This document shows, piece after piece, positions 22,152 through 39,009 of a DNA stretch of 64,000 bases. Below the pieces are notes generated by a model. It searched no databases, was not told the origin of the DNA, and saw only the letters and a program-made list of their open reading frames with translations. A program made the translations under genes and the position numbers. Position 1 is the stretch's first letter; every line of letters starts with the position of its first letter. This DNA comes from Trichlorobacter ammonificans (GTDB taxonomy: Bacteria; Desulfobacterota; Desulfuromonadia; Geobacterales; Pseudopelobacteraceae), in NCBI RefSeq assembly GCF_933509905.1, contig NZ_OW150024.1, positions 62,001 to 126,000 of the forward strand, in the 5' to 3' direction.

Positions 22152-22262
22152 GCAAGTACGCCTGCCCCCCACGCAGCGCCTCCGGTAAAAATCGGAGGCA
22201 CTCACCAGTGAGGTGCTCTCTAACGCCCTTGTTTTAATGGGTTTTTATATATTTTTCTGATT
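22152..22262. other. Intergenic region upstream of the nifH promoter
   Basis: Contains the hairpin GCCTCCG/CGGAGGC (22178-22184/22193-22199) and a short CTCAC/GTGAG palindrome after it, then an AT-rich stretch just before the sigma54 promoter. An activator site would be expected here, but no TGT-N10-ACA NifA motif was found. No gene is seen. Confidence 0.5.
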
Positions 22263-22278
22263 TGGTACGGCAAATGCT
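22263..22278 (+). promoter_or_regulatory. Sigma54 promoter of nifHDK
   Basis: TGGTACGGCAAATGCT has GG at 22264-22265 and GC at 22276-22277 with 10 nt between. Transcription should start near 22289, some 255 nt before nifH, leaving a long structured leader. Confidence 0.78.
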
Positions 22279-22288
22279 TACCTACGGT

Positions 22289-22373
22289 CAATCGTTCTTC
22301 GACACATGAAGCAGCACAAGAACCAAGGCAACGGCGCCTTCCAATGATTATCACGCATTGGGGCGCCGTTTTT
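22289..22373 (+). promoter_or_regulatory. nifH leader: hexaloop hairpin versus intrinsic terminator (ANTAR-type)
   Basis: Hairpin: AAGGC/GCCTT (22325-22329/22336-22340) closes the hexaloop AACGGC, the same loop as in the nifB leader. Terminator: ACGGCGCC (22331-22338) pairs with GGCGCCGT (22362-22369), extended by CCAATG/CATTGG inside and followed by five T. The structures exclude each other. An upstream CTTC/GAAG hairpin (22298-22312) could be the first of the pair but has a 7-nt loop. A 14-nt core (AGGCAACGGCGCCT) is identical in the nifB and nifH leaders. Confidence 0.7.
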
Positions 22374-22452
22374 CGTGGCCCCACGAACAAGACAAATCAC
22401 ATGGGTGTCGATGTGGCGATGGATCCTGCGGCAGTGAGAAGCCGGCACCGGA

Positions 22453-25199: not shown

Positions 25200-26669
25200 A
25201 TGGCTAACGCACTGGGCCTTGAGGTCAAGAAAGTAACCGACTATACCGCCGAAGAGGTGGAAACAACCAGAAACTGGATCAACAGCGAGGAGTACAAGGA
25301 GAAGAACTTTGCCCGTCAGGCGCTGGTGATCAACCCGGCCCACGCCTGTCAGCCGCTGGGGGCGCAACTGGCCGCCCACGGGTTCGAAGGAACGCTTCCC
25401 TTTGTACACGGCTCACAGGGTTGCGCCTCCTACTACCGCTCCACCCTGAACCGTCATTTCCGCGAGCCTGCTCCGGCGGTTTCCGACGCCATGACCGAGG
25501 ACGGCGCGGTGTTCGGCGGCCAGAACAACCTGCATGAGGGGCTGGAAAACGCCATCGCCCTCTACAAGCCCAAGATGGTGGCGGTCTTTACCTCCTGCAT
25601 GCCGGAGGTGATCGGCGACGACCTGACCGCTTTCATCAAGAACGCCCGGCAGAAGGGCTTTGTGCCCAAAGAGCTGCCGGTGCCCTATGCCAACACCCCC
25701 AGCTTCAACGGCAGCCATATCCATGGCTATGATGCCATGCTGCTGTCGATCCTGCAGAGCCTGACCGAGGATAAAAAGCTTGAAGGGCGCTGCACCGGCA
25801 AGCTGAACCTGATCCCGGGCTGCGACTTCAACACCGGCAACTACCGCGAATACAAGCGGATACTGGAGGAGTTCGGCATCCCCTGTACCATGCTGGCCGA
25901 TATCTCCGACACCTTTGACTCCCCCTGCGACGGTACCTACCACACCTACCTGGGGGGCACCAAGCTGGAGGATGCCGCGGATTCCATCAACGGCAAGGCG
26001 ACCATCACCCTTGGCCCCTACGCAACTCCCAAGACCTTTGCCTGGATCAAGGACACCTACTCCGGCAAGCAGGTCAGCATGCCGCTGCCCATGGGGATCG
26101 AGAAGACCGATGCCTTTATCATGAAGATCGCCGAGCTGTTCGGCAAGGAGGTGCCCGCTTCACTGAAAAACGAGCGCGGACGGGCCGTGGATGCCATGAC
26201 CGATTCCCACCAGTACATGCACGGCAGGAAGTTTGCCGTCTACGGCGACCCGGATTACCTGATGGGCTACGTCTCGTTCCTGCTGGAGATGGGGGCAGTG
26301 CCGCAGCACATCCTCTGCAGCAAGGGGACCAAGAAGATTGAGAAGGAGTTGCAGGGGCTGCTGGACGGTTCACCCTACGGCGCGGGCTGCAAGATTTACA
26401 TGAACAAGGATCTGTGGCACCTGCGCAGCCTGGTGATGACCGAGCCGGTGGACGCCATCATCGGCGACACCCACGGCAAGTTCGCGGCCCGCGATGCCGG
26501 TATCCCGCTGTTCCGCTTCGGCTTCCCGATCATGGACCGGGTCAACAAGCACCGCTATCCGCTGGTGGGCTACCAGGGGGTGATCAACATGGTCACGGAG
26601 ATCTGCAACAAGTTTATCGATATCAAGGATGAGACCTGCGAGGATCGGTATTTTGAGATGATGCGGTAA
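25200..26669 (+). CDS. nifK: Nitrogenase molybdenum-iron protein beta chain NifK
   Basis: 489 aa, ATG with AAAGGAG upstream. P-cluster cysteines are in NPAHACQPLGAQLAA, HGSQGCASYYRSTLNRHF and FTSCMPEVIGDDL; the conserved serine region and SFNGSHIHGYDAML are present. Completes the nifHDK operon. The final 13 codons plus stop (26627-26669) are duplicated exactly at 36149-36191, beyond the inserted restriction-modification island, so the functional gene end here is one of two copies of the putative integration site. Confidence 0.97.
   Translation: MANALGLEVKKVTDYTAEEVETTRNWINSEEYKEKNFARQALVINPAHACQPLGAQLAAHGFEGTLPFVHGSQGCASYYRSTLNRHFREPAPAVSDAMTEDGAVFGGQNNLHEGLENAIALYKPKMVAVFTSCMPEVIGDDLTAFIKNARQKGFVPKELPVPYANTPSFNGSHIHGYDAMLLSILQSLTEDKKLEGRCTGKLNLIPGCDFNTGNYREYKRILEEFGIPCTMLADISDTFDSPCDGTYHTYLGGTKLEDAADSINGKATITLGPYATPKTFAWIKDTYSGKQVSMPLPMGIEKTDAFIMKIAELFGKEVPASLKNERGRAVDAMTDSHQYMHGRKFAVYGDPDYLMGYVSFLLEMGAVPQHILCSKGTKKIEKELQGLLDGSPYGAGCKIYMNKDLWHLRSLVMTEPVDAIIGDTHGKFAARDAGIPLFRFGFPIMDRVNKHRYPLVGYQGVINMVTEICNKFIDIKDETCEDRYFEMMR
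26627..26669 (+). repeat. 43-bp direct repeat, left copy (3' end of nifK)
   Basis: Runs from GGATGAGACCTGCG to GATGATGCGGTAA. Every base matches 36149-36191. It encodes the C-terminal residues of NifK and the stop codon. Such duplication of a gene's 3' end around an insert is the usual trace of site-specific integration. Confidence 0.9.
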
Positions 26670-26697
26670 AAAACAATAATAACAGGCAGAGCAAAAG

Positions 26698-26737
26698 GGA
26701 CGTCTCCGGTTTTGGAGGCGTCTCTTTTTATTTTACG
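26698..26737 (+). terminator. Intrinsic terminator after nifK
   Basis: GGGACGTCTCC and GGAGGCGTCTC pair (one G-U) around a GGTTTT-type loop and are followed by TTTTTATTTT. It should stop nifHDK transcripts, so nifEN would not be reached from the nifH promoter. Confidence 0.8.
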
Positions 26738-26775
26738 ACCCGCAATAACAGTAATAACGTTTTTGCAATTTATCG

Positions 26776-26836: not shown

Positions 26837-27412
26837 ATGAAGACGGTCCTAAAAAATATCACCTCCATTCAGGCAGGTTATTCATTCCGCTCTCGCCTGG
26901 AATCTACGGAAAACGGTTCTCTTGCCGTCATCCAGATGAAAGACCTGACAAGCGCAAACCTTGTTTGCTGCGACGAACTGGCACGTGTCAATATAGAAAC
27001 ACCCAAGGCACACCATCTGGTACGACCTGGCGATCTGATCTTCCGTTCACGAGGATTAACCAGTAATTCTGCCCTACTTACAACCGATCCCGGCGATGCC
27101 GTACTTGCGGCGCCCCTTTTGCGGATCAGGATAACCAGCAAGCAGGTTTTGCCGGAATACCTGAACTGGTATATCAGTCAGCCTCCCGCACAGTCATACC
27201 TTGCAAGCTGCGCCGAAGGCACTGCACTCAAGATGATCAGCAAGCAGTCACTGCAAAATCTTGAGGTATTCGTGCCGTCAATTGCCAGGCAACGGCTGGT
27301 TGTGGAGATGGCATTGCTGGCCGTGGAAGAACAGCGCATCCTGAAAACTCTCGCAGAAAAACGGAATCACTATATTTCATCCACGTTACTTCAGTTGGCA
27401 CAAGGAGAATAA
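26837..27412 (+). CDS. hsdS: Half-size type I restriction specificity subunit (single TRD)
   Basis: 191 aa, about half a normal HsdS. It has one target-recognition-type domain (LKNITSIQAGYSFRSR near the start, PGDLIFRSRG, GTALKMISKQSLQNLEVFVPSIARQR) and one C-terminal helix (LLAVEEQRILKTLAEKRNHY) that would act as the conserved spacer. Half subunits can dimerise to recognise symmetric targets. It is the first gene after the island promoter, 5 nt before hsdM, while a full-length hsdS lies downstream. Confidence 0.7.
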   Translation: MKTVLKNITSIQAGYSFRSRLESTENGSLAVIQMKDLTSANLVCCDELARVNIETPKAHHLVRPGDLIFRSRGLTSNSALLTTDPGDAVLAAPLLRIRITSKQVLPEYLNWYISQPPAQSYLASCAEGTALKMISKQSLQNLEVFVPSIARQRLVVEMALLAVEEQRILKTLAEKRNHYISSTLLQLAQGE

Positions 27413-27417
27413 CCACA

Positions 27418-28974
27418 ATGGCTGAGCACATTGATCAGAAAGATATCAACAACGCGGCCTGGGCTGCCTGCGACACCTTCCGCGGCGTGGTGGATCCGGC
27501 ACAATACAAAGATTACATCCTCGTCATGCTGTTCGTAAAATACATCTCGGATGTCTGGAAAAGTCACTACGAAGAATACCGCCAGCACTATGGCAATGAC
27601 GATGTGCGCATCAGGCGGAGACTGGAGCGGGAGCGTTTTGTGCTTCCCTTTGCCGAGCTGAAGAACCATGAAACCGGCAAGGTGGAAGACCGTTTTCTGG
27701 CAGACTTCTACAGCCTGTATGAACGGCGCAATGCGGCCAACATCGGCGAGTTGATCAATATCGTGCTGGACGCCATTGAAGAGGCTAACAAGGCAAAGCT
27801 GGAAAGCGTCTTTCGTAATATCGACTTCAACAGCGAATCCAATTTGGGCAAAACCAAGGACCGCAACCGTCGCCTGAAAACACTGCTGGAAGACTTCAAC
27901 AAGCAGTTGCTGGATATGAGTCCCGGCAAGGTTTCCGAAGATGTCATCGGCAACACCTACATCTACCTGATCGAACGCTTTGCTTCTGACTCCGGCAAAA
28001 AGGCCGGAGAATTCTACACTCCGCACAAGATTTCAACACTGGTGGCCAAGCTGGGCAGACCCAAGCAAGGCGATCGCATCTGCGATCCGACCTGTGGCTC
28101 GGGTGGACTTTTAATTGAGGCGGCCAGAGAGGTCAATGACCGCAACTTCGCCCTGTTCGGCATGGAATCAAACGGCAGCACCTGGGCGCTGGCGCGGATG
28201 AACATGTTCCTGCATGGTGCCGACAGCGCCCGTATTGAATGGTGCGACACCCTCAACAGTCCGGCTTTGGTGGAAAATGACCGTTTGATGAAGTTCAACG
28301 TCGTGGTGGCAAATCCACCCTTTTCCCTCGACAAGTGGGGTGCCGAAAATGCCGAAAGCGACCGCTATAACCGCTTCTGGCGCGGTGTACCGCCCAAATC
28401 AAAGGCTGACTGGGCATTCATCAGCCACATGGTTGAATCGGCACTGGAAAAGGAAGGGCGGGTTTCTGTTGTCGTGCCCCATGGCGTGCTGTTCAGAGGC
28501 GCAGCCGAAGGGCGCATACGGCAGAAGATGATCGAAGAGAATCTGCTGGATGCCGTTATCGGCCTGCCGGGCAATCTCTTCACCACCACCTCCATTCCGG
28601 TGGCAATCCTGGTTTTTGACCGCAGCCGCGAAAAAGGGGGAGCCAATCAGGGGCGCAAGGACGTGCTCTTTGTGGATGCCAGCCGTGATTATCTGCCGGG
28701 CAAAAACCAGAACTCCCTTTCTGAAGAACATATCCAGAAAATTGTCGATACGGTTACTGCTCGGCAGGATGTTGATAAATACGCCCATGTGGCCTCCTTC
28801 GACGAGATCAAGGAAAACGACTTCAACCTGAACATTCCCCGCTATGTGGACACCTTCGAGGAGGAGGCGGAGATCGATATCGATGCCGTGCAGGCGGAGA
28901 TCGAGCAGTTGGAGGGTGAACTGGTGACAGTGCGGGCCAAAATGGCGGCGATGCTGAAGGAGATCGAGCGATGA
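27418..28974 (+). CDS. hsdM: Type I restriction-modification DNA methyltransferase subunit HsdM
   Basis: 518 aa. The N-terminal helical HsdM_N region (AAWAACDTFRGVVDPAQYKDYIL) is followed by the N6-adenine methylase core: FYTPHKIS, SAM-binding DPTCGSGGLL, and catalytic NPPF near residue 298 (VVVANPPFSLDKWG). It methylates adenine in the site chosen by HsdS and is also needed for restriction. It overlaps the rhuM-like gene by 4 nt. Confidence 0.95.
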   Translation: MAEHIDQKDINNAAWAACDTFRGVVDPAQYKDYILVMLFVKYISDVWKSHYEEYRQHYGNDDVRIRRRLERERFVLPFAELKNHETGKVEDRFLADFYSLYERRNAANIGELINIVLDAIEEANKAKLESVFRNIDFNSESNLGKTKDRNRRLKTLLEDFNKQLLDMSPGKVSEDVIGNTYIYLIERFASDSGKKAGEFYTPHKISTLVAKLGRPKQGDRICDPTCGSGGLLIEAAREVNDRNFALFGMESNGSTWALARMNMFLHGADSARIEWCDTLNSPALVENDRLMKFNVVVANPPFSLDKWGAENAESDRYNRFWRGVPPKSKADWAFISHMVESALEKEGRVSVVVPHGVLFRGAAEGRIRQKMIEENLLDAVIGLPGNLFTTTSIPVAILVFDRSREKGGANQGRKDVLFVDASRDYLPGKNQNSLSEEHIQKIVDTVTARQDVDKYAHVASFDEIKENDFNLNIPRYVDTFEEEAEIDIDAVQAEIEQLEGELVTVRAKMAAMLKEIER

Positions 28975-30023
28975 CCCAACAGCAGGCAGGAGAGATTCTT
29001 TTCTACCAGACCGAAGACGGACGCATCCGGCTGGAATGCCGCTTTGAGGACGAATCGCTGTGGCTGACCCAGGCTGCTATGGCTGAGCTGTATCAGGTCA
29101 CGCCTCAGAACGTTACATTGCATCTGAAAGCGATCTACGAGGAAGGCGAACTGGAGCAGACAACAACCTGTAAGGATTACTTACAAGTTCAATCAGAAGG
29201 CGGGCGCGAGGTCTCCCGGACCCGGAAGTTTTACAATTTGGACGCGATCCTGGCCGTTGGCTACCGGGTCCGCTCCCACCGGGGCACCCAGTTCCGCAGG
29301 TGGGCCACTGACCGGCTGAAAGAATATCTTGTCAAGGGCTTCACCATGGACGACGAGCGGCTGAAGAATCCGCCCGTGGCCGGCTCGGCCGTTCCTGATT
29401 ATTTCGACGAGATGCTGGCCCGTATCCGCGACATCCGTGCCAGCGAACGCCGGATGTATCTGCGGGTGAAAGAGATTTTCACCCTGGCCGGTGATTATGA
29501 CCCGTCTTGGCCGGAGACTACCAAGTTCTTCAGCGTTATTCAGAACAAGCTGCATTTTGCCGCAACCGGCATGACTGCTCCGGAGCTTATCCACAGCCGT
29601 GCCGACCATACCAAAGCAAATATGGGGCTCACGAGCTTCAAAGCTGGTGAGGTTCGCAAAACCGATGTAACCATTGCCAAAAACTATCTGACTGAGAAAG
29701 AAATTGATGAACTGAACCGGATCGTGGTCATGTGGCTGGATTACGCCGAAGATCAGGCCCGGCGGCGCAAGCAGGTGTTCATGAAGGACTGGGAGCAGAA
29801 GCTGGATGAGTTTCTGCGTTTCAATGACCGGCGGGTGCTGGAAAATGCCGGTTCGGTCAGCAAAAAGCATGCGGAAACCCATGCCCGTGATGAGTATGAC
29901 CAGTTTGCCCAACGGCGGCGGGAGCATAAGGAAGCTGTTGGGGAGGAAGAGTCGATAAAGGCGCTGGAGGAAGCGGCGCGGGTGTTTGGTGGTGGGCAGA
30001 AGAAGGTTGGGGGTGGGGAATGA
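28971..30023 (+). CDS. RhuM family protein
   Basis: 350 aa. The N-terminal region EILFYQTEDGRIRLECRFEDESLWLTQAAMAELYQVTPQNVTLHLKAI, followed by REVSRTRKFYNLDAILAVGYRVRSHRGTQFRRWA, is the hallmark of RhuM/virulence-type proteins with a DNA-binding-like domain. The family often lies inside type I systems and genomic islands, but its function is unknown. It overlaps hsdM and hsdS by 4 nt each, so it is part of the operon. It could be the regulator acting on the palindrome at 26804-26826; this is inference. Confidence 0.85.
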   Translation: MTQQQAGEILFYQTEDGRIRLECRFEDESLWLTQAAMAELYQVTPQNVTLHLKAIYEEGELEQTTTCKDYLQVQSEGGREVSRTRKFYNLDAILAVGYRVRSHRGTQFRRWATDRLKEYLVKGFTMDDERLKNPPVAGSAVPDYFDEMLARIRDIRASERRMYLRVKEIFTLAGDYDPSWPETTKFFSVIQNKLHFAATGMTAPELIHSRADHTKANMGLTSFKAGEVRKTDVTIAKNYLTEKEIDELNRIVVMWLDYAEDQARRRKQVFMKDWEQKLDEFLRFNDRRVLENAGSVSKKHAETHARDEYDQFAQRRREHKEAVGEEESIKALEEAARVFGGGQKKVGGGE

Positions 30024-31183
30024 GTAACCATTCTTGGCCAATGAAGAAAATCGGAGATCTGTTTGATGTTCAACTGGGTAAAATGCTTAACGAAAAAGCC
30101 AAACAGGGCAATTTGTTACCATATTTAGCTAACTTTAATGTCAGGTGGGGTTCATTCGATCTCACACGACTAAACGAGATGACTTTTTCTGAAAAGGAAC
30201 GAAAGAAGTTCTCTCTTGAGCGTGGCGACTTACTCATGTGCGAAGGTGGAGAAATCGGTCGATGTGCCGTTTGGGAAGAGGCATATCAACCAATTTATTT
30301 CCAAAAAGCGCTACATCGACTTCGCCCTTTAAGTCGCGGCACCAATGCAGAATTTTACTGCTACTTCATGCAGTATATTGCCTCAAAAGGTGACTTGCCA
30401 AAGCTGGTTGGCGAAACGAGTATCGCTCACCTTACAAGAGAAAAACTTCTTTGCTTACGCGTTCCTGCCCCTCCACTCCCCGAACAAACCGCCATCGCCT
30501 CCCTGCTCTCCATCTGGGATCTTGCCATCGAAAAAACCGAGCGGCTGATTGCGGCCAAGGAGAAGCAGTATTTAGGCCTGCTCAGCCGCTTGATAACAAA
30601 TGGCAGATATCCACACAGCCATATTCGGGAGTTTGCCACTGAAGTTTCACGGCGGAACAGTGGTGCGGCAATCGTACAAGTTCTCAGCGTCACCAACCGT
30701 AATGGTTTTGTCCTTCCAGAAGATCAATTTGAACGTCAGGTTGCCAGCAGTGACCTGAGCAATTACAAGGTTGTTACCAACGGGCAGTATGCCTACAACC
30801 CTTCCCGTATTAATGTCGGATCAATTGCACGGCTGGATAATTGGAACATCGGCGTTCTCAGCCCGATGTATGTAGTTTTCAAGCTTGATGAAGCGAAGGT
30901 CAATTCTGATTTTTTTCTTCATTGGCTTGAATCGCATGAAGCCAAGCAGCGAATCAGCAAGAGCGCTCAAGGCAGTGTGCGCGAGACCGTCAGCTTTACA
31001 GACCTCGCAGCAATTCCGTTTCCTCTTCCATTCATTGACCAGCAAAAACAGATCGCCGCCATCCTCACCACCGCTCGCCAGGAAATCGACCTACTGAAAA
31101 AACAGGCCGAAGCCTATCGCAGACAGAAGCGCGGACTGATGCAGCGGCTGTTGACCGGGGAATGGCGGGTGAAGGTCTCGTAG
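30020..31183 (+). CDS. hsdS: Type I restriction specificity subunit HsdS (full length)
   Basis: 387 aa with two TRDs: residues ~1-150 and ~195-345, each followed by a conserved helix region (LPEQTAIASLLSIWDLAIEKTERLIAAKEKQY and DQQKQIAAILTTARQEIDLLKKQAEAYRRQKRGLMQRLLTGEWRV). It sets the DNA target of the HsdRMS complex. The coding sequence is visibly more AT-rich in the TRDs than its neighbours, as is common for shuffled specificity genes. Confidence 0.92.
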   Translation: MSNHSWPMKKIGDLFDVQLGKMLNEKAKQGNLLPYLANFNVRWGSFDLTRLNEMTFSEKERKKFSLERGDLLMCEGGEIGRCAVWEEAYQPIYFQKALHRLRPLSRGTNAEFYCYFMQYIASKGDLPKLVGETSIAHLTREKLLCLRVPAPPLPEQTAIASLLSIWDLAIEKTERLIAAKEKQYLGLLSRLITNGRYPHSHIREFATEVSRRNSGAAIVQVLSVTNRNGFVLPEDQFERQVASSDLSNYKVVTNGQYAYNPSRINVGSIARLDNWNIGVLSPMYVVFKLDEAKVNSDFFLHWLESHEAKQRISKSAQGSVRETVSFTDLAAIPFPLPFIDQQKQIAAILTTARQEIDLLKKQAEAYRRQKRGLMQRLLTGEWRVKVS

Positions 31184-31201
31184 GGTTTGGCGGGGGTTGT
31201 T

Positions 31202-31244
31202 GTGGACATGGTGGACAGCATGGACTTTGTGGACGGAGTGGACA
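31202..31244 (+). repeat. GTGGACA minirepeats upstream of the four-helix-bundle gene
   Basis: Five degenerate units of the form (G/A)TGGAC spaced 9-12 nt follow the hsdS stop. The same unit recurs in both orientations inside the following gene (31670-31764). Confidence 0.75.
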
Positions 31245-31265
31245 GATTTGTGTGTGGGAGGTTGT

Positions 31266-31943
31266 ATGGGTGGGGGTGAGGGGTTGATTCCCAGGCATGG
31301 CGGCTATCGCAACCTGAAAAGCTTTCAGATTGCCCAACTGGTCTATGATGTGACCGTCCGTTTCTGCGAGCGCTACATCGACCGCTTCAGCCGCACCCGC
31401 GACCAGATGGTGCAGGCGGCGCGCAGCGGCGTGCAGAACATCGCCGAAGGAAGCCAGGCTTCCGGCACCTCGAAGAAGACCGAGCTGAAACTGACCAACG
31501 TAGCCCGCGCCAGCCTGGAAGAGCTGAAGCTGGATTATGAAGACTTTCTGCGCCAGCATGGGCTGCCGCTCTGGGAGCGGGAAGACCCGCGCCGGAAGGG
31601 GTTGGTGGCGCGGCGATGCGGGACGGCGGATGAGGTGGCGGCTTGGTGCAAGGAAGTGCACGGGCAGGGTTTTTGTGGACTTGGTGGACCAAATGGACAG
31701 AATGGACGTGATGGACAGTCCAGAGCGTCCACGTCGTCCATGATGTCCACAGCGTCCACAAAAACGCCTGAACCCCACCCCACCTACCCAGAAATTGCTG
31801 CCAACGCCGCCCTCACCCTGCTGGCCGTCGCCTGCTCCCTGCTGGACCGCCAGCTTGCCGCCCAAGCTGCGGCCTTTGAAAAAGAAGGGGGCTTCACCGA
31901 ACGCCTCTACCGCACCCGCAGCCAGGCCAGGAGAAAACCATGA
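31266..31943 (+). CDS. Four-helix-bundle protein (S23/IVS-type) with repeat-bearing linker
   Basis: About 225 aa from ATG 31266; earlier starts would translate the TGGAC minirepeats. Residues ~12-105 match the four-helix-bundle family (YRNLKSFQIAQLVYDVTVRF, MVQAARSGVQNIAEGSQASGTSKKTELKLTNVARASLEEL). A low-complexity linker (about residues 130-165) is encoded by an imperfect 95-bp palindrome of TGGAC/GTCCA units. The C-terminal suffix (NAALTLLAVACSLLDRQLAAQAAAFEKEGGFTERLYRTR) is typical of the four-helix-suffix form. Genes of this kind often sit inside type I systems; role unknown. It overlaps hsdR by 4 nt. Confidence 0.75.
   Translation: MGGGEGLIPRHGGYRNLKSFQIAQLVYDVTVRFCERYIDRFSRTRDQMVQAARSGVQNIAEGSQASGTSKKTELKLTNVARASLEELKLDYEDFLRQHGLPLWEREDPRRKGLVARRCGTADEVAAWCKEVHGQGFCGLGGPNGQNGRDGQSRASTSSMMSTASTKTPEPHPTYPEIAANAALTLLAVACSLLDRQLAAQAAAFEKEGGFTERLYRTRSQARRKP
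31670..31764. repeat. 95-bp imperfect palindrome of TGGAC/GTCCA units inside the four-helix-bundle gene
   Basis: Outer arms TTTTTGTGGAC (31670-31680) and GTCCACAAAAA (31754-31764) are perfect inverse complements. Between them, direct TGGAC units on the left half mirror GTCCA units on the right half. It lies in the region coding for a linker. Confidence 0.75.
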
Positions 31944-34900
31944 CCGTTTTCCGCTTCAACGAAAAATACCTTTCCCAGATCCCAGCCCTGCAACTCCTGA
32001 TCAACCTGGGCTATGAATATCTCCCCCCAGAGCAGGTCATGAAACAGCGCCAGGGCAAAACCGGCAATGTGCTTCTTGAGGGTATCCTGTGCGACCAGCT
32101 GAAACGACTCAACCGCATCAACTACAAAAGCCGCGAATTCCTGTTCAGCGAAGAGAACATCCAGACCGCCGTCCAGAAACTGAAGAACGTCAAATACGAC
32201 GGACTGCTCAAAACCAACGAAGCAATATACGACCTGATTACCCTCGGCACCGCGCTGGAACAGACTGTCGAAGGGGACTCCAAGAGCTTCAACCTGAACT
32301 ACATCGACTGGCGCAACTGGGAGCGCAATGCCTTTCATGTCACCGCTGAATTCAACGTGGCACGCTCCCGCAGTAACGAAGCCGCCCGGCCGGATATCGT
32401 CCTGTTTGTCAACGGTATCCCGCTGGCGGTGATCGAATGCAAATCGCCCAACGTGGGTGTAGAACAGGCCATCTCCCAATCCATTCGCAACCAGAATGAC
32501 GACTTCATCCCCAAACTGTTCGTCTATACGCAACTGGTCATGGGGATCAACAAAAATGCCGCACAGTACGCAACGACCGGCACCCAGGCGAAATTCTGGG
32601 CGCCCTGGAAAGAGCTGCGTGACAAAGAAAGTGATGTTGCCGGTTGCGTCAATGCCGCTCTTGCAATCGACAAGAAAGATCTGCTGTTCAGCGGCGAATT
32701 TGCCGTTGCCCGGTCATTTTTCGATGCCCATGAAACAGAAGGCGAACGCCTGGTTACCGAGCAGGACAAGGTTCTCTACAGCCTCTGTCGCCCCGAACGG
32801 CTGCTGGAACTGGCCTTCAAATTCACTGTTTTCGACGGCGGCATCAAGAAGATCGCCCGCTATCAGCAGTTCTTTGTCATCAAGTCAACCCTGGAGCGGA
32901 TCAAACAACTGGACAGTGAAGGCCGTCGTCGGGGCGGCATCATCTGGCACACACAGGGGTCGGGTAAATCACTGACCATGGTTATGCTGGGGAGAAATCT
33001 GGCCCTCGATCCGTGCGTAACCAATCCACGCATCGTGCTGGTGACGGACCGTGACGACCTGGACAAACAGTTGGGCAATACCTTTGCCGCCTGCGGGCTG
33101 GACCCTAGCCGGGCCACCTCGGGCAAGCACCTGATGGAACTGGTGGCGGAGCACAAGGCCAGCATCGTCACCACACTGATTCACAAGTTCGACAAGGCGC
33201 TGAACATCAAGAAATACCAGGATGACTCCCCCGATATCTTCATGTTGATTGATGAAAGCCACCGCACCAACTTCGGCAATTTCTCGGCACGGATGCGGCA
33301 GATGTTCCCCAATGCCTGCTACATCGGTTTTACCGGCACGCCGCTCTTGAAAAAGGAGAAGAACAACTTCCAGAAGTTCGGTGGCCTGATTGAACCGCAC
33401 TACTCCATCAACCAGGCGGTGGAGGACGGGGCAGTTGTCCCGCTGCTCTATGAGGGACGACATGTAGAGATGGAGCAGAACAAGACCGCCATCGATCTCT
33501 GGTTCGAGCGTCATACGCAGGGGCTGAGCAAAGAGCAAAAGGCTGACCTGAAACGGAAATATGCCAAGGCTTCGATGCTGAACAAGGCCGATCAGGTGGT
33601 CTACATGCGGGCCTTCGACATCAGTGAGCATTTCCGCGCCAACTGGCAGGGAACCGGTTTCAAGGCTCAACTGGTTGCCCCGAGCAAAGCCGTGGCCCTG
33701 AAGTATCAGGAACACCTTGAAGAGATCGGCTTTGTCTCTTCCGAAGTGGTTATCTCGGCACCGGACAGCCGCGAAGGATATGATGAGACCGACGACGAGC
33801 CAACGGACGAGGTGGTCAAGTTCTGGCTGAAGATGATGAAACGCTACGGCAGCGAAGATGAATATACCAAGCAGATCATCAACCAGTTCAAGTTTGGATC
33901 AGAACCGGAAATTCTGATCGTGGTGAGCAAGCTGCTGACCGGTTTCGATGCTCCGCGCAACCGGATCATCTACATCTGCAAGGAACTGAAGGAACATACC
34001 CTGTTGCAGGCCATAGCCCGCGTCAACCGGCTGTCGGAAGACAAGGACGAAGGGTTTGTCGTTGACTACGTGGGGCTACTGGGTGAACTGGATAAGGCCC
34101 TGACCATGTACAGCGCTTTTGAAGGGTATGACGAGGATGACCTGAAAGGGTCGATGACCTCCATAAACAGCGAGATCGAGAAGCTGCCCCAACGTTACTC
34201 CGACCTGTGGGACATCTTCAAGGAGGTCAAGAACAGCTATGACGAAGAGGCCTATGAGGTTCTGCTGGCCGATGATGCCGTACGGGAAGACTTTTACCAA
34301 TGCCTGGCTGAATACAGTAAAACGCTGGGCATCGCTCTTTCGTCGGAAGCGTTTATTACAACAGTCGATGAGGCCCGGCTCTATCGCTACAAGGCCGATT
34401 TGAAGCGCTTTCACAACCTGAAAGCCTCCGTCAAACTCCGCTATGCCGAGGCCATTGACTACCGGGATTACGAACCGAAGATCAGGAAGCTGCTCGACAC
34501 CCATATTCAAGCAAATGAGGTTATTCAACTGAATGAACCGGTAAATATCTTTGACGAAAAGATGTTCAATGTGGTGAAGGAAGAACAGGGCGTTTACGGC
34601 AAGAGTACGGCGGCCAAGGCTGATGCCATTGCCCATGCCACGAAACGGGTCATTACGGAAAAGATGGCTGAAGATCCGGCATTTTACCAGAAATTTTCCA
34701 AACTGATTCAGCAGGCCATTGAGGATTTCCGGGCCAAGCGTATATCGGATCTTGACTATCTGAACAAAGTTTCCGACATCCGCACCCATGTTGTTACCCG
34801 TCACCATGACGATATACCGGAATCCCTCACCGGCAACGAGGAAGCGATGGCATTTTATGGCGTCCTGAAGCCGTTCTTCGAGCAGCATGATCTGGAACGG

Positions 34901-35137
34901 TGTGCAGGCGAGGCCATTGCCGCCGAAACCGCCCTGGCCATTCAGGCCATTCTGGACCGTCATTGGAAGGTGCAGTTCTGGGATGACGATGATGCCCAGA
35001 AACAGGTCATCAACGACATCGACGACTATCTGTTTGACGAGGTAATAAGCAATAAAAGAGTAGAAATCAGCCTTGAACAGATGGACAAACTCATTGAACA
35101 GACCATGCAGGTGACCAGGCACCGGAGAACCCCATGA
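31940..35137 (+). CDS. hsdR: Type I restriction endonuclease subunit HsdR
   Basis: 1065 aa, normal length. The nuclease domain has the PD-(D/E)XK core PDIVLFVNGIPLAVIECKSP near residue 160. Helicase motor motifs follow: Walker A HTQGSGKSLT near residue 338, DESHR near 437, and FTGTPLL and LLQAIARVNR further on. HsdR translocates and cuts unmethylated DNA together with HsdM and HsdS. No break or missing motif was noticed, so the system looks intact. Confidence 0.95.
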   Translation: MTVFRFNEKYLSQIPALQLLINLGYEYLPPEQVMKQRQGKTGNVLLEGILCDQLKRLNRINYKSREFLFSEENIQTAVQKLKNVKYDGLLKTNEAIYDLITLGTALEQTVEGDSKSFNLNYIDWRNWERNAFHVTAEFNVARSRSNEAARPDIVLFVNGIPLAVIECKSPNVGVEQAISQSIRNQNDDFIPKLFVYTQLVMGINKNAAQYATTGTQAKFWAPWKELRDKESDVAGCVNAALAIDKKDLLFSGEFAVARSFFDAHETEGERLVTEQDKVLYSLCRPERLLELAFKFTVFDGGIKKIARYQQFFVIKSTLERIKQLDSEGRRRGGIIWHTQGSGKSLTMVMLGRNLALDPCVTNPRIVLVTDRDDLDKQLGNTFAACGLDPSRATSGKHLMELVAEHKASIVTTLIHKFDKALNIKKYQDDSPDIFMLIDESHRTNFGNFSARMRQMFPNACYIGFTGTPLLKKEKNNFQKFGGLIEPHYSINQAVEDGAVVPLLYEGRHVEMEQNKTAIDLWFERHTQGLSKEQKADLKRKYAKASMLNKADQVVYMRAFDISEHFRANWQGTGFKAQLVAPSKAVALKYQEHLEEIGFVSSEVVISAPDSREGYDETDDEPTDEVVKFWLKMMKRYGSEDEYTKQIINQFKFGSEPEILIVVSKLLTGFDAPRNRIIYICKELKEHTLLQAIARVNRLSEDKDEGFVVDYVGLLGELDKALTMYSAFEGYDEDDLKGSMTSINSEIEKLPQRYSDLWDIFKEVKNSYDEEAYEVLLADDAVREDFYQCLAEYSKTLGIALSSEAFITTVDEARLYRYKADLKRFHNLKASVKLRYAEAIDYRDYEPKIRKLLDTHIQANEVIQLNEPVNIFDEKMFNVVKEEQGVYGKSTAAKADAIAHATKRVITEKMAEDPAFYQKFSKLIQQAIEDFRAKRISDLDYLNKVSDIRTHVVTRHHDDIPESLTGNEEAMAFYGVLKPFFEQHDLERCAGEAIAAETALAIQAILDRHWKVQFWDDDDAQKQVINDIDDYLFDEVISNKRVEISLEQMDKLIEQTMQVTRHRRTP

Positions 35138-35847
35138 ATTCTGCCTTTGGCACCATCAAGTACGGCAGGGAACAGGTACAATTCAATGTGCTCTACTCCG
35201 CCAGAAAAACCTTGGGAATTGAGGTTTATCCTGACAGCAGTGTTGTCGTTAAAGCACCGCTCGGGATCGATTCGTCAGAGGTGCAAAGAAGGGTCTTCAG
35301 GCGTGTCCGATGGATAGTAAGGCAGCAGCGCTATTTCCGTCAGTTTGACCCGAGAACACCAGTGCGGCAGTTTGTCGGGGGAGAAACCCACCTGTATCTG
35401 GGCAGGCAATTTCGGCTCGCAATCAGTTCAGGGAATCAGGATTCAGTAAAGTTGACCCGTGGTTACTTTACCGTCGCAGTCAGGGGCACTGTTTCTTCTG
35501 ATAAAGTAAAAAGCCTGCTGGATAGTTGGTATGCCGCAAAGGCAACTGCAAAGTTTGAAGAAATTTTAACCCACCGCTGGCCACATTTTGAAAAGTTGGG
35601 ATTGTCGAAACCGCGCATGCAGACCAAATACTTGAAGAAACGTTGGGGTAGCCTGTCACGAAACGGACTGTTAACACTCAATACGGATCTGATCCGCGCT
35701 CCAAAAGAGTGTATCGATTACGTCATCACCCATGAGCTTTGCCATCTGCAATACCACGACCACAGTGCTGAGTTTTATCGGCTTCTTGAAAAGGTACTGC
35801 CGGACTGGGAGAAGCGGAAACACAAACTGGAACTGACGCTGGCCTGA
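35134..35847 (+). CDS. YgjP-type (DUF45/M48-like) metallopeptidase
   Basis: 237 aa. Zinc motif HELCH near residue 199 in YVITHELCHLQYHDHSAEFYRLLEKVLPDWEKRK; MQTKYLKKRWGSLSRNGLLTLNTDL precedes it, as in the family. It overlaps hsdR by 4 nt. This family is frequently the last gene of type I restriction operons; its substrate there is unknown. Confidence 0.88.
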   Translation: MNSAFGTIKYGREQVQFNVLYSARKTLGIEVYPDSSVVVKAPLGIDSSEVQRRVFRRVRWIVRQQRYFRQFDPRTPVRQFVGGETHLYLGRQFRLAISSGNQDSVKLTRGYFTVAVRGTVSSDKVKSLLDSWYAAKATAKFEEILTHRWPHFEKLGLSKPRMQTKYLKKRWGSLSRNGLLTLNTDLIRAPKECIDYVITHELCHLQYHDHSAEFYRLLEKVLPDWEKRKHKLELTLA

Positions 35848-36063
35848 ACACCCTCATGGTTTACACTGCATTAGTATGCCCCTCTGCGTAGCTTTGGCTG
35901 CGCCTGTCATTCTCCACGATAGCCACATTGTGCAGTGTCTCTTTGCCCGGTCCCTGAAACTTCGACAGGCATCTGCATAAAAATCCATCACAAGCAATGT
36001 AAAATCAACAAAGACAAAAAAATATGATGTGTATAAACGGCATGTTACGCGGTTAGAGGCGTT
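35848..36063. other. Non-coding right end of the island
   Basis: AT-rich sequence with no credible gene. A segment near 35885-35912 (TGCGTAG..GGCTGCGCCT) looks like a decayed relative of the palindromic repeats at 10305 and 25068. No TGT-N10-ACA activator motif was found upstream of the nifEN promoter. Confidence 0.4.
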
Positions 36064-36079
36064 TGGCACAGCTCCTGCT
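36064..36079 (+). promoter_or_regulatory. Sigma54 promoter of nifEN, inside the island's right end
   Basis: TGGCACAGCTCCTGCT has GG at 36065-36066 and GC at 36077-36078 with 10 nt between. The start is expected near 36090, upstream of the right repeat copy. It would give nifEN its own promoter. Confidence 0.78.
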
Positions 36080-36089
36080 ATAAATTGAG

Positions 36090-36148
36090 CGCATGAGAAA
36101 CTGTAAGCATAGCAACAGCGCCATAGCTTTATGCCGATTCCAGTTCAG
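36090..36148 (+). promoter_or_regulatory. Truncated nif-type leader upstream of nifEN
   Basis: AGCAACAGCGCC (36111-36122) resembles the AGGCAACGGCGCC core of the nifB and nifH leaders. The possible stem ATAGC/GCCAT has one mismatch and the loop AACAGC has A rather than G at position 4. No downstream GGCGC arm or T-run follows before nifEN, so the terminator half is absent. The sequence stops at the 43-bp repeat. Confidence 0.5.
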
Positions 36149-36191
36149 GGATGAGACCTGCGAGGATCGGTATTTTGAGATGATGCGGTAA
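36149..36191 (+). repeat. 43-bp direct repeat, right copy (relic of nifK 3' end)
   Basis: Identical to 26627-26669, including the stop codon, but not attached to any nifK reading frame. It ends 70 nt before the nifEN start. Confidence 0.9.
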
Positions 36192-36261
36192 TCAGGCAGG
36201 GGGGAGGTGTTTCCGTCCCCATTGTTCCTCGGTTGCTCACCGTAGAGAAACGAGACCAATC

Positions 36262-39009
36262 ATGGCAAAACCTGATTATTACGATACCGAAGACTGCGCC
36301 ACCCACGAAAAGGGAGCCCCCAAGTTTTGCAAGAAATCGGAGCCTGGCGAGGGGACCGAACGCTCCTGCGCCTACGATGGCGCCCGGGTGGTGCTGATGC
36401 CGGTGACCGATGCGATCCATCTGGTGCACGGCCCCATCGCCTGCGCCGGTAACTCCTGGGATAACCGGGGAGCGCGCTCGTCGGACTCGCAACTGTACCG
36501 CCGCGGTTTTACCACGGAAATGCTGCAGAACGATGTGATCTTCGGCGGCGAGAAAAAGCTGTACCGGGCGATTCTTGATCTGGCGGCGCGGTATCCGGAG
36601 GCAAAGGGGATGTTTGTCTACGCCACCTGTGTGACCGCCATGACCGGCGACGATCTGGAGGCGGTCTGCAGCGCAGCCCAGAAAAAAATTGCCCTCCCGA
36701 TCGTGCCGGTCAACACCCCCGGTTTTATCGGCGACAAGAACATCGGCAACCGCCTGGCGGGCGAAATACTGTTCAAACAGGTGATCGGCACCGCGGAACC
36801 GCCGCTGCTGGGCGAGTATCCGATCAACCTGATCGGCGAGTACAACATCGCCGGCGATCTCTGGGGGATGCAGCCGCTGTTTGACCGGCTGGGCATCCAG
36901 ATCCTTTCCTGCTTCAGCGGTGACGCGAAATTCGAGGAGCTGCGCTACGCCCACCGGGCCAAGCTGAATATCATCATCTGCTCCAAAAGCCTGACCAACC
37001 TGGCCAAGAAGATGCAGAAGACCTACGGCATGCCCTATCTGGAAGAATCATTCTACGGCATGACCGACACGGCCAAGGCGTTGCGCAACATCGCCCGAGA
37101 ACTGGACGATGCCGTGGGGGGCCTGGAAAAGCGGATCATGCAGGACCGGGTGGAACAGGTGCTGGAAGAGGAAGAGAGCAGGTGCCAAGAGCTGATCGCC
37201 CCCTGCCGTGCCCGTCTGGAAGGCAAACGGGCCGTGCTGTTCACCGGCGGGGTCAAGACCTGGTCCATGGTCAACGCCCTGCGGGAACTGGGGATCGAGA
37301 TCCTGGCCGCAGGCACCCAGAACTCGACCCTGGAAGACTTCTACCGGATGAAGGCGTTGATGCACAAGGATGCCCGGATCATCGAAGACACCTCAACCGC
37401 CGGACTGCTGGGGGTGATGAAGGAGAAGATGCCGGACCTGATCGTTGCCGGCGGCAAAACCAAGTTTCTGGCGCTGAAGACCAAGACCCCGTTTCTGGAT
37501 ATCAATCACGGCAGGTCCCACCCCTATGCCGGGTATGCGGGGATGGTCACCTTTGCCCGGCAGCTCGACCTGACGGTCAACAACCCGATCTGGCCGCTCT
37601 TGAACGGCCCGCCCCCCTGGGAGGCGGAGAGCGCAGCACTGGTAGCGGCGGCCCGCAGCCATGCCGCAGACTATCTGGCGGAAGACCTGGCCGCTTCACG
37701 GGTTGCCGTGCCCACCAAGGCAGCCACGGTCAATCCGCAGAAGAACTCCCCGGCACTGGGGGCGACCCTGGCCTATCTGGGCATCGACCAGATGCTGGGC
37801 CTGCTGCATGGCGCCCAGGGCTGCTCCACCTTCATCCGCTTGCAACTGTCGCGGCACTTCAAGGAATCCATTGCCCTGAACGCCACGGCCATGAGCGAGG
37901 ACAGCGCCATCTTCGGCGGCTGGGAAAACCTGAAGCAGGGCATCACCAGGGTGATCGAGAAGTTTCATCCTGCGCTGGTGGGAGTGATGACCTCCGGCCT
38001 GACCGAGACCATGGGGGACGATGTCCGCTCCGCCATCCACCAGTTCCGCGCGGAACATCCGGAGCATGACGGCGTGCCGGTGGTCTGGGCCTCCACCCCG
38101 GACTACTGCGGCTCGTTGCAGGAGGGGTATGCAGCGGCGGTTGAGGCGATCCTGAGCAGTATCCCCGAAGCCGGTGAGACGATCCCCGGCCAGGTAAACT
38201 TGTTGCCGGGAGCGCAGTTGACCCCGGCCGATGTCGAGGAGTTGAAGGAGATCATCGAATCCTTCGGCCTCTCCGTGCTCTGCATCCCCGACATCGCCAA
38301 CGCCCTGGACGGCCATATCGATGAAGAGGTCTCACCCCTGTCAACCGGTGGCATCAGTGTCGAAAAGATCAGGCTGGCCGGCCGCAGCAGCGCCACCCTC
38401 TATGCGGGGGATTCGCTGGCCAAAGCCGCTGCCGGCATGGAAGAGCAGTTCGGCATCCCGGCCTACGGTTTTACCTCGCTTTCCGGCATGGCGGAAACCG
38501 ACCGGTTCATGGCAGTGCTGGCTGCCATAAGCGGCAGGCCGATACCGGAGAAACACCGCCGCTGGCGTTCCCGTCTGGCCGATGCCATGGTGGATTCCCA
38601 CTATCAGTTCGGCAACCGAAAGGTGGCCCTGGCACTGGAGGCTGACCACCTGAAGGGGATGACCCGCTTCCTGGCCGGCATGGGCTGTGCCATACAGGCT
38701 GCCGTGGCTGCCACCCGCACCAGGGGGCTGGACAGCCTGCCCTGCGACAACGTCTTTGCGGGGGATCTGGAAGATCTGGAAACCGCCGGCACCGGGGCGG
38801 AGCTGCTGGTGGCCAACTCAAACGGCAGGCAGGCAGCGGCAACCTTGAAGATCGGCGCCCATCTGCGCACCGGCCTGCCGGTGTTTGACCGGCTGGGGGC
38901 GCACCAGAAGCTGTGGGTGGGGTATCGCGGCACCATGAACCTGGTCTTTGAGGTGGCCAACCTGTTCCAGGCCAATGCCAATGAGGCCCAGAAGCTGGCA
39001 CACAACTGA
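36262..39009 (+). CDS. nifEN: Fused FeMo-cofactor scaffold protein NifEN
   Basis: 915 aa. Residues ~1-450 are NifE: CAYDGARVVLMPVTDAIHLVHGPIACAGNSWDNRG and VYATCVTAMTGDDL hold the cluster cysteines, and DINHGRSHPYAGYAGM ends the domain. A linker near residues 460-490 leads to NifN (NPQKNSPALGATLAYLG, HGAQGCSTFIRLQLSRHF, TSGLTETMGDD). NifEN receives NifB-cofactor and matures it to FeMo-co with Mo and homocitrate. The fusion matches the fused nifEN known in Geobacter. It is separated from nifK only by the island. Confidence 0.95.
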   Translation: MAKPDYYDTEDCATHEKGAPKFCKKSEPGEGTERSCAYDGARVVLMPVTDAIHLVHGPIACAGNSWDNRGARSSDSQLYRRGFTTEMLQNDVIFGGEKKLYRAILDLAARYPEAKGMFVYATCVTAMTGDDLEAVCSAAQKKIALPIVPVNTPGFIGDKNIGNRLAGEILFKQVIGTAEPPLLGEYPINLIGEYNIAGDLWGMQPLFDRLGIQILSCFSGDAKFEELRYAHRAKLNIIICSKSLTNLAKKMQKTYGMPYLEESFYGMTDTAKALRNIARELDDAVGGLEKRIMQDRVEQVLEEEESRCQELIAPCRARLEGKRAVLFTGGVKTWSMVNALRELGIEILAAGTQNSTLEDFYRMKALMHKDARIIEDTSTAGLLGVMKEKMPDLIVAGGKTKFLALKTKTPFLDINHGRSHPYAGYAGMVTFARQLDLTVNNPIWPLLNGPPPWEAESAALVAAARSHAADYLAEDLAASRVAVPTKAATVNPQKNSPALGATLAYLGIDQMLGLLHGAQGCSTFIRLQLSRHFKESIALNATAMSEDSAIFGGWENLKQGITRVIEKFHPALVGVMTSGLTETMGDDVRSAIHQFRAEHPEHDGVPVVWASTPDYCGSLQEGYAAAVEAILSSIPEAGETIPGQVNLLPGAQLTPADVEELKEIIESFGLSVLCIPDIANALDGHIDEEVSPLSTGGISVEKIRLAGRSSATLYAGDSLAKAAAGMEEQFGIPAYGFTSLSGMAETDRFMAVLAAISGRPIPEKHRRWRSRLADAMVDSHYQFGNRKVALALEADHLKGMTRFLAGMGCAIQAAVAATRTRGLDSLPCDNVFAGDLEDLETAGTGAELLVANSNGRQAAATLKIGAHLRTGLPVFDRLGAHQKLWVGYRGTMNLVFEVANLFQANANEAQKLAHN

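Follow-up and report, generated by a model that had tools for sequence, protein, structure and literature searches.

The closest described counterpart of the gene considered here is the nifEN fusion gene of Geobacter sulfurreducens (GSU2806), for which the available part of the original report describes an RpoN-dependent promoter mapped by primer extension (PMC2725144). A second point of reference is provided by leaders under the control of ANTAR proteins, which, according to the available sections of two papers, require an A at position 1 and a G at position 4 of the hairpin loop (PMC3369931, PMC8164766). A third is the fused nifHDK-nifEN operon of Geomonas and of the congener G007; in the latter, a 79% complete draft genome, nifK lies 120 bp from nifEN, uninterrupted and with no sigma54 site in the spacer. 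The GnfR system of G. sulfurreducens (Ueki and Lovley 2010) reportedly works by ANTAR antitermination.

Across the order, nifEN follows a simple rule: where it is fused to nifK it has no promoter, and where it stands apart it has a sigma54 promoter of its own; one exception is known. An earlier sequence-only reading of this DNA had pointed to the nifEN upstream regions of relatives as a useful comparison, and this proved to be the case with a set of 81 other loci (80 of 98 relatives were kept, and G000 and G007 were added; upstream sequence is short for L136, 155 bp, and L139, 110 bp). At 18 of the 81, nifK lies within 168 bp of nifEN, and the 300 bp before nifEN contain no strict sigma54 site. 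The other 63 have a separate nifEN with its own sigma54 site, which is within 300 bp in 61 cases, the remaining two being L137, with its site at 315 bp, and L139, where 110 bp is all the upstream sequence there is. At these separate-type loci nifK comes no nearer than 329 bp on the available stretch. In G014 (L025 6242-7102), a nifH-like gene, 87% identical, is found between the nifK end and nifEN.

The window, by which we mean the whole 64,000-nucleotide stretch that was analysed, corresponds to bases 62001-126000 of the Trichlorobacter ammonificans genome, a single contig of 3.06 Mb; coordinates below refer to its + strand. The nifHDK genes end with nifK (25200-26669), which is followed by an intrinsic terminator (26693-26728) as strong as the sequence-only reading had supposed: folding gives -24 kcal/mol over 26670-26745, with a z of -3.5. 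The gap between nifK and nifEN then holds a 9.5-kb insertion that includes a type I restriction-modification island (26837-35847; hsdS-like, hsdM, rhuM, hsdS, IVP-like, hsdR and YgjP-like genes), with a sigma54 promoter at its right end. The nifEN fusion gene itself (36262-39009) matches Pfam Oxidored_nitro over two stretches. Compared with the 81 other loci, this is the only one at which both states are combined: nifEN is preceded at 74 bp by a nifK tail and at -199 by a sigma54 site, so that a 47-bp tail intervenes between promoter and gene. Like GSU2806 (PMC2725144, as far as its available text goes), the locus has a sigma54 promoter of its own for the nifEN fusion gene, predicted in our case, but only here does a nifK-tail fragment follow the promoter and a restriction island precede it. 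With the fused operons it shares the nifK tail 74 bp 5' of nifEN and a spacer end close to that of G007, yet just 47 bp of nifK are present and a sigma54 promoter stands in front. We consider it probable that the locus is a chimera, in which a separate-type nifEN promoter has been fused to a nifK-tail/nifEN junction and most likely drives nifEN separately. Our literature search, which was largely without subscription papers, found no report of such an arrangement.

The sequence-only reading had placed a well-spaced -24/-12 promoter between the island and a right-hand repeat copy. Such a promoter, TTGGCACAGCTCCTGCT, is indeed present at 36063-36079, with GG-N10-GC spacing and both the TGG and TGC elements. 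An enhancer-like site (UAS), TGCATAAAAATCCATCA at 35974-35990, starts 89 bp 5' of the -24 TTGG, and an enhancer-like palindrome occupies the position 89-90 bp before -24 in most of 62 relatives' nifEN promoters. From those promoters, leaving out the present locus, we derived by eye the consensus TGCMYAAWWWWWRGGCA; four or fewer mismatches to it are found at the same place in 55 of the 62, against 0.68% of shuffles. The present site has four mismatches, with a good left half and a degenerate right half, so activation may be weak, and the best UAS match within 700 bp falls exactly at -89. A further element, AACGGCATGTTAC at 36036-36048, which we take to resemble an IHF site, lies 27 bp 5' of the -24 TTGG. 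It differs from ATCRGYATRWTAG by two mismatches at a fixed position, as do 0.045% of shuffles, an optimistic rate because the motif was sought after the locus had been seen to resemble G016 and G021. This -27 element is not universal, being found with at most two mismatches in 12 of the 62 nifEN promoters and with at most three in 22, and in 0/31 nifH promoters at either threshold. The window contains nine strict sigma54 matches, six of which were compared; among these, the 36063 site alone has both elements near their place, with 6 mismatches summed over the two against at least 16 for the five others.

An alignment to nif promoters, another comparison that had been put forward at the outset, gave a consistent picture. 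The promoter sets, for this as for the upstream elements, came from those of the 80 loci whose upstream sequence was long enough (62 or 59 nifEN, 31 nifH and 1 nifB). Over 155 ungapped bp, the closest match is the nifEN promoter L158 of Pelotalea chapellei, with 77 identities, while the 31 nifH promoters reach at most 58 and 300 shuffles at most 61; the eight best matches are nifEN promoters in every case. Because both the upstream elements and the 155-bp identity favour nifEN over nifH promoters, we read the site at 36063 as a predicted nifEN-class sigma54 promoter, of a type known from other genera. A nifH-type promoter is ruled out by the same identities and by the absence of the -27 element, at three or fewer mismatches, from the nifH set. 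The promoter is also unlike its genus, given that the congeners' own nifEN promoters (L090-L093, L104 from Trichlorobacter thiogenes, and L109) lack the -27 element, and their leaders are short. A DNA search of 141 genomes with 35990-36144 returned short or weak matches only and no homologous copy elsewhere; the best outside the own genome is 36 bp long (G018, 1.4e-4), and the surrounding stretch that was examined there has no sigma54 site.

Downstream of the promoter is what appears to be the remnant of an ANTAR-type leader hairpin (36112-36122), with the hexaloop AACAGC. The sequence-only reading had described a nif leader fragment resembling those of nifB and nifH, in a feature given as 36064-36148. 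The nif-type hairpin is there, but promoter and leader are like those of nifEN in relatives rather than those of nifB or nifH, and the leader-like part stops near 36122, because a dispersed repeat takes over, its 5' end matching 36123-36154. Searching the own genome for a pattern that combines sigma54 site and hairpin (TGGYRC-N6-TGC-N15..45-GCAAMRGYGCC) gave two matches, at nifB and at 36064, and none with the reversed version used as control. In 141 genomes of the order, 114 matches are listed, some of which resemble coding sequence, against 3 for the control, and 93 genomes have a match. A chance sigma54 match is ruled out by these counts together with the fit of the upstream elements. Scoring of the hairpin flanks discriminates weakly (7.5 with the nifEN model, 7.3 with a nifH model built from 4 sequences), and the class of the promoter therefore rests on the upstream elements.

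The layout shared with separate-type Geobacterales nifEN promoters such as L158 comprises a putative UAS near -89, the -27 element, the -24/-12 site and the ANTAR-type hairpin; however, leaders of the L158 type run on into a terminator, whereas the present one is cut off at the repeat and nifK tail. What it has in common with ANTAR antitermination leaders, as the available part of one description presents them (PMC3369931), is a hexaloop hairpin with A1 after a nif promoter, but here loop G4 is changed, no second hairpin is apparent and there is no terminator. The lack of a terminator arm had been noted from the sequence, and a scan of the + strand over 36080-36262 likewise found no terminator; the leader by itself folds no better than shuffles (z 0.56). 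G4 is kept in 45 of 46 hairpin-bearing nifEN leaders of relatives, the exception (L113) also reading AACAGC. Since 19 of 63 relatives' nifEN leaders are without a terminator by a crude T-run criterion, terminator loss is not unique to this locus. The nifH and nifB leaders of the own genome are complete (the nifH promoter, ANTAR-type leader and terminator, at 22262-22380, served for comparison), and the sole ANTAR-domain protein found in the genome (16644-17486) is a candidate antiterminator of its nif leaders. Without loop G4 and terminator, nifEN has probably lost ANTAR control here. An Rfam scan of the window gave a TPP riboswitch as its sole match. Among the congeners, the nifEN leaders of L090, L093 and L104 are 63 bp long, with an AACGAT hexaloop hairpin adjoining the ribosome site and without a terminator; translational rather than antitermination control is possible for these.

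Directly after the hairpin begins a dispersed repeat, about 125 bp long in full and represented here by its 5' end (36123-36154), which occurs throughout the genus (in 14/15 genomes); the copies listed number 40 in G005 (presumably T. lovleyi), 38 in G011 and 8 in the own genome. By eye, the nifH 5' UTR of the own genome and of G008 looks like a diverged copy of this repeat. The repeat's last 10 bp here (36145-36154) coincide with the start of the right repeat copy of the sequence-only reading (36145-36191), which repeats the 3' end of nifK: 46 of its 47 bp are identical to 26623-26669, with one base differing from the real nifK end, and it finishes with the stop codon. Full repeat copies read TTCAAGGATGATAG and nifK reads ATCAAGGATGAGACC; the two share TCARGGATGA, and the joint falls there. 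After the tail comes the nifK-nifEN spacer (36192-36261), in which 36235-36254 is 19/20 identical to the fused spacer of G007, both being 27 bp from the ATG. To judge by this nifK tail, and by a G007-like spacer at equal distance from the start codon, the sequence to the right of the joint was once a nifK-nifEN junction, and that to its left is a separate-type promoter. The tail copy is nearest to the own nifK (46/47, compared with 44 for G027, 43 for G012 and 37 for G007), which disfavours a G007-like resident source and allows plain duplication. This identity is better explained by local duplication of the nifK tail, or by exchange between strains that are nearly identical, than by a G007-like source. 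The shared 10 or so bp suggest recombination at short homology, a signature of the kind left by homology-facilitated illegitimate recombination during DNA uptake.

The relatives that carry the same island allow its history to be followed further. Judged by one conserved protein, G012 is the closest congener (89% compared with at most 84%); it has the same island directly 3' of nifK, flanked on its right by methyltransferase and exchanger genes which in the window come after the molybdate genes. Its nifEN is on a separate contig with its own short promoter, and no sigma54-like site, strict or loose, is present in the 1,450 bp after ygjP. In G118, from another genus, the same restriction operon lies near a nifK-tail copy, from which a gene judged by eye to be rubrerythrin-like separates it; no strict sigma54 site is present at the operon's right end, where a single loose match falls within a long ORF. 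For both relatives examined we therefore reject the idea that the promoter regularly belongs to the restriction operon. The nifD and nifK trees join the own genome with G012 (100/99), while the nifE tree separates them (92/93, with the split drawn open). Identity to G012 at third codon positions is 80-87% for the island, 74-75% for nifDK, 64% for nifH, 64% for nifEN and 49-61% for three flanking genes. These values suggest that the island was exchanged after the own species and G012 had split, slow evolution of the island being an alternative, and, taken with the trees, that the nifDK-island stretch was probably exchanged as a block.

Two histories had been proposed from the sequence, namely that the island brought the promoter or that the promoter is the remnant of a second nif operon. 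Neither agrees with the data in its original form. Our results lie nearer to the former, because G007 has the nifK-nifEN junction uninterrupted and the promoter here falls on the side of that junction taken up by the insert, although the restriction operon is without such a promoter in G012 and G118. In the explanation that we favour, DNA uptake would have brought nifDK, the restriction island and the nifEN promoter, and recombination at short homology, in the repeat end sharing about 10 bp with the nifK tail, would have joined the separate-type promoter and leader to the fused-type nifK-tail/nifEN junction, so that the leader lost its terminator. Whereas the arrangement of the sequence, its rarity and the place of the joint are observed directly, we infer the mechanism and direction of this exchange, as we do the activity of the promoter and its activator; the predicted layout consists of an enhancer site of NtrC type followed by an IHF-like element, the -24/-12 site and a leader with an ANTAR-type hairpin. 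As a strong terminator closes nifHDK and there is no other convincing promoter, nifEN is most likely transcribed separately from this site, its RNA beginning with a leader some 170 bases long, and the earlier proposal that the promoter keeps nifEN expressed beyond the nifK terminator fits the evidence.

The exchange may instead have run in the opposite direction, with a separate nifEN and its promoter resident and foreign DNA carrying a fused nifK-tail/nifEN replacing the leader's terminator and the nifEN beyond the repeat. The joint would look identical, the trees place the own nifE among congeners but nifDK with G012 alone, and G012 combines the island after nifK with a separately promoted nifEN. 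Nevertheless we think this unlikely, given that the tail copy resembles the resident nifK and is unlike that of a foreign fused donor such as G007. The second-operon history would require the loss of everything between leader and nifK tail in another nifHDK operon, and promoter, leader and tail are in the correct order for this. However, the promoter is of nifEN class, its -27 element and its 155-bp sequence having no match among the nifH promoters (0/31 and at most 58/155, as above), the nifH leaders of the genus read CAAGGCAACGGCGCCTTCC, unlike the leader here, and blastn of 35848-36262 gave no nifH or nifD piece; we regard this history as very improbable.

A site-specific mobile island at the nifK 3' end seems to us about as unlikely as the opposite direction of exchange; in this case the 47-bp repeats would be attL and attR, the left one restoring nifK, and the promoter would be cargo that spares nifEN from polarity. 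The insert is bounded by a direct repeat that ends exactly at the nifK stop, and inserts after nifK are likewise bounded by a second nifK tail in G048, G057 and G118; with the own genome this makes four cases among the 116 genomes in which the nifK tail was matched. The cargo of these inserts differs, being type I restriction-modification in the own genome, ATPase and AAA/TPR pairs in G048 and G057, and SecDF with an exchanger in G118. Yet no integrase family was found among the seven island proteins (Pfam) or the ten insert proteins scanned, the tail copies differ in length (47-139 bp), in G118 the nifK tail does not form the border of the same restriction operon, and the promoter is absent from the right end in both relatives with the island. 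Finally, the sigma54 site and leader could persist as a fossil, nifEN being transcribed by readthrough or from another promoter. The weak right half of the UAS and the loss of loop G4 and terminator would be expected of a fossil, but the -24/-12 site is intact, a strong terminator precedes the island, and sigma-70-type sites are not in excess (6 compared with 5.9 in shuffles), with none immediately 5' of nifEN, so that we think a fossil distinctly improbable.

If our favoured explanation is true, the locus would be a natural case of an operon split by a foreign insert whose downstream gene keeps a promoter of its own class. The survival of nif operons through rearrangement would then become testable at a single junction. 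More speculatively, and in our view less likely than not, the nifK 3' end may be a recurrent landing place for defence genes and other cargo in Geobacterales, where inserts splitting a nifHDK-nifEN operon persist if they come with a nifEN promoter beside the landing site; the promoter of the present island would on this account have rewired nifEN into a separate operon and freed it from ANTAR antitermination control, so that the insertion of a defence island would have altered how nitrogenase cofactor assembly is regulated and yet not have silenced it.

The island has two further features of its own. Besides the full hsdS (30020-31183), a half-size type I specificity-like protein is encoded 5' of hsdM at 26837-27412, which PADLOC assigns to Specificity_I and which has no Pfam match. 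Between hsdS and hsdR, the IVP-like gene contains at 31669-31765 a 48-bp near-perfect inverted repeat composed of 9-bp-like units, with arms 73% complementary.
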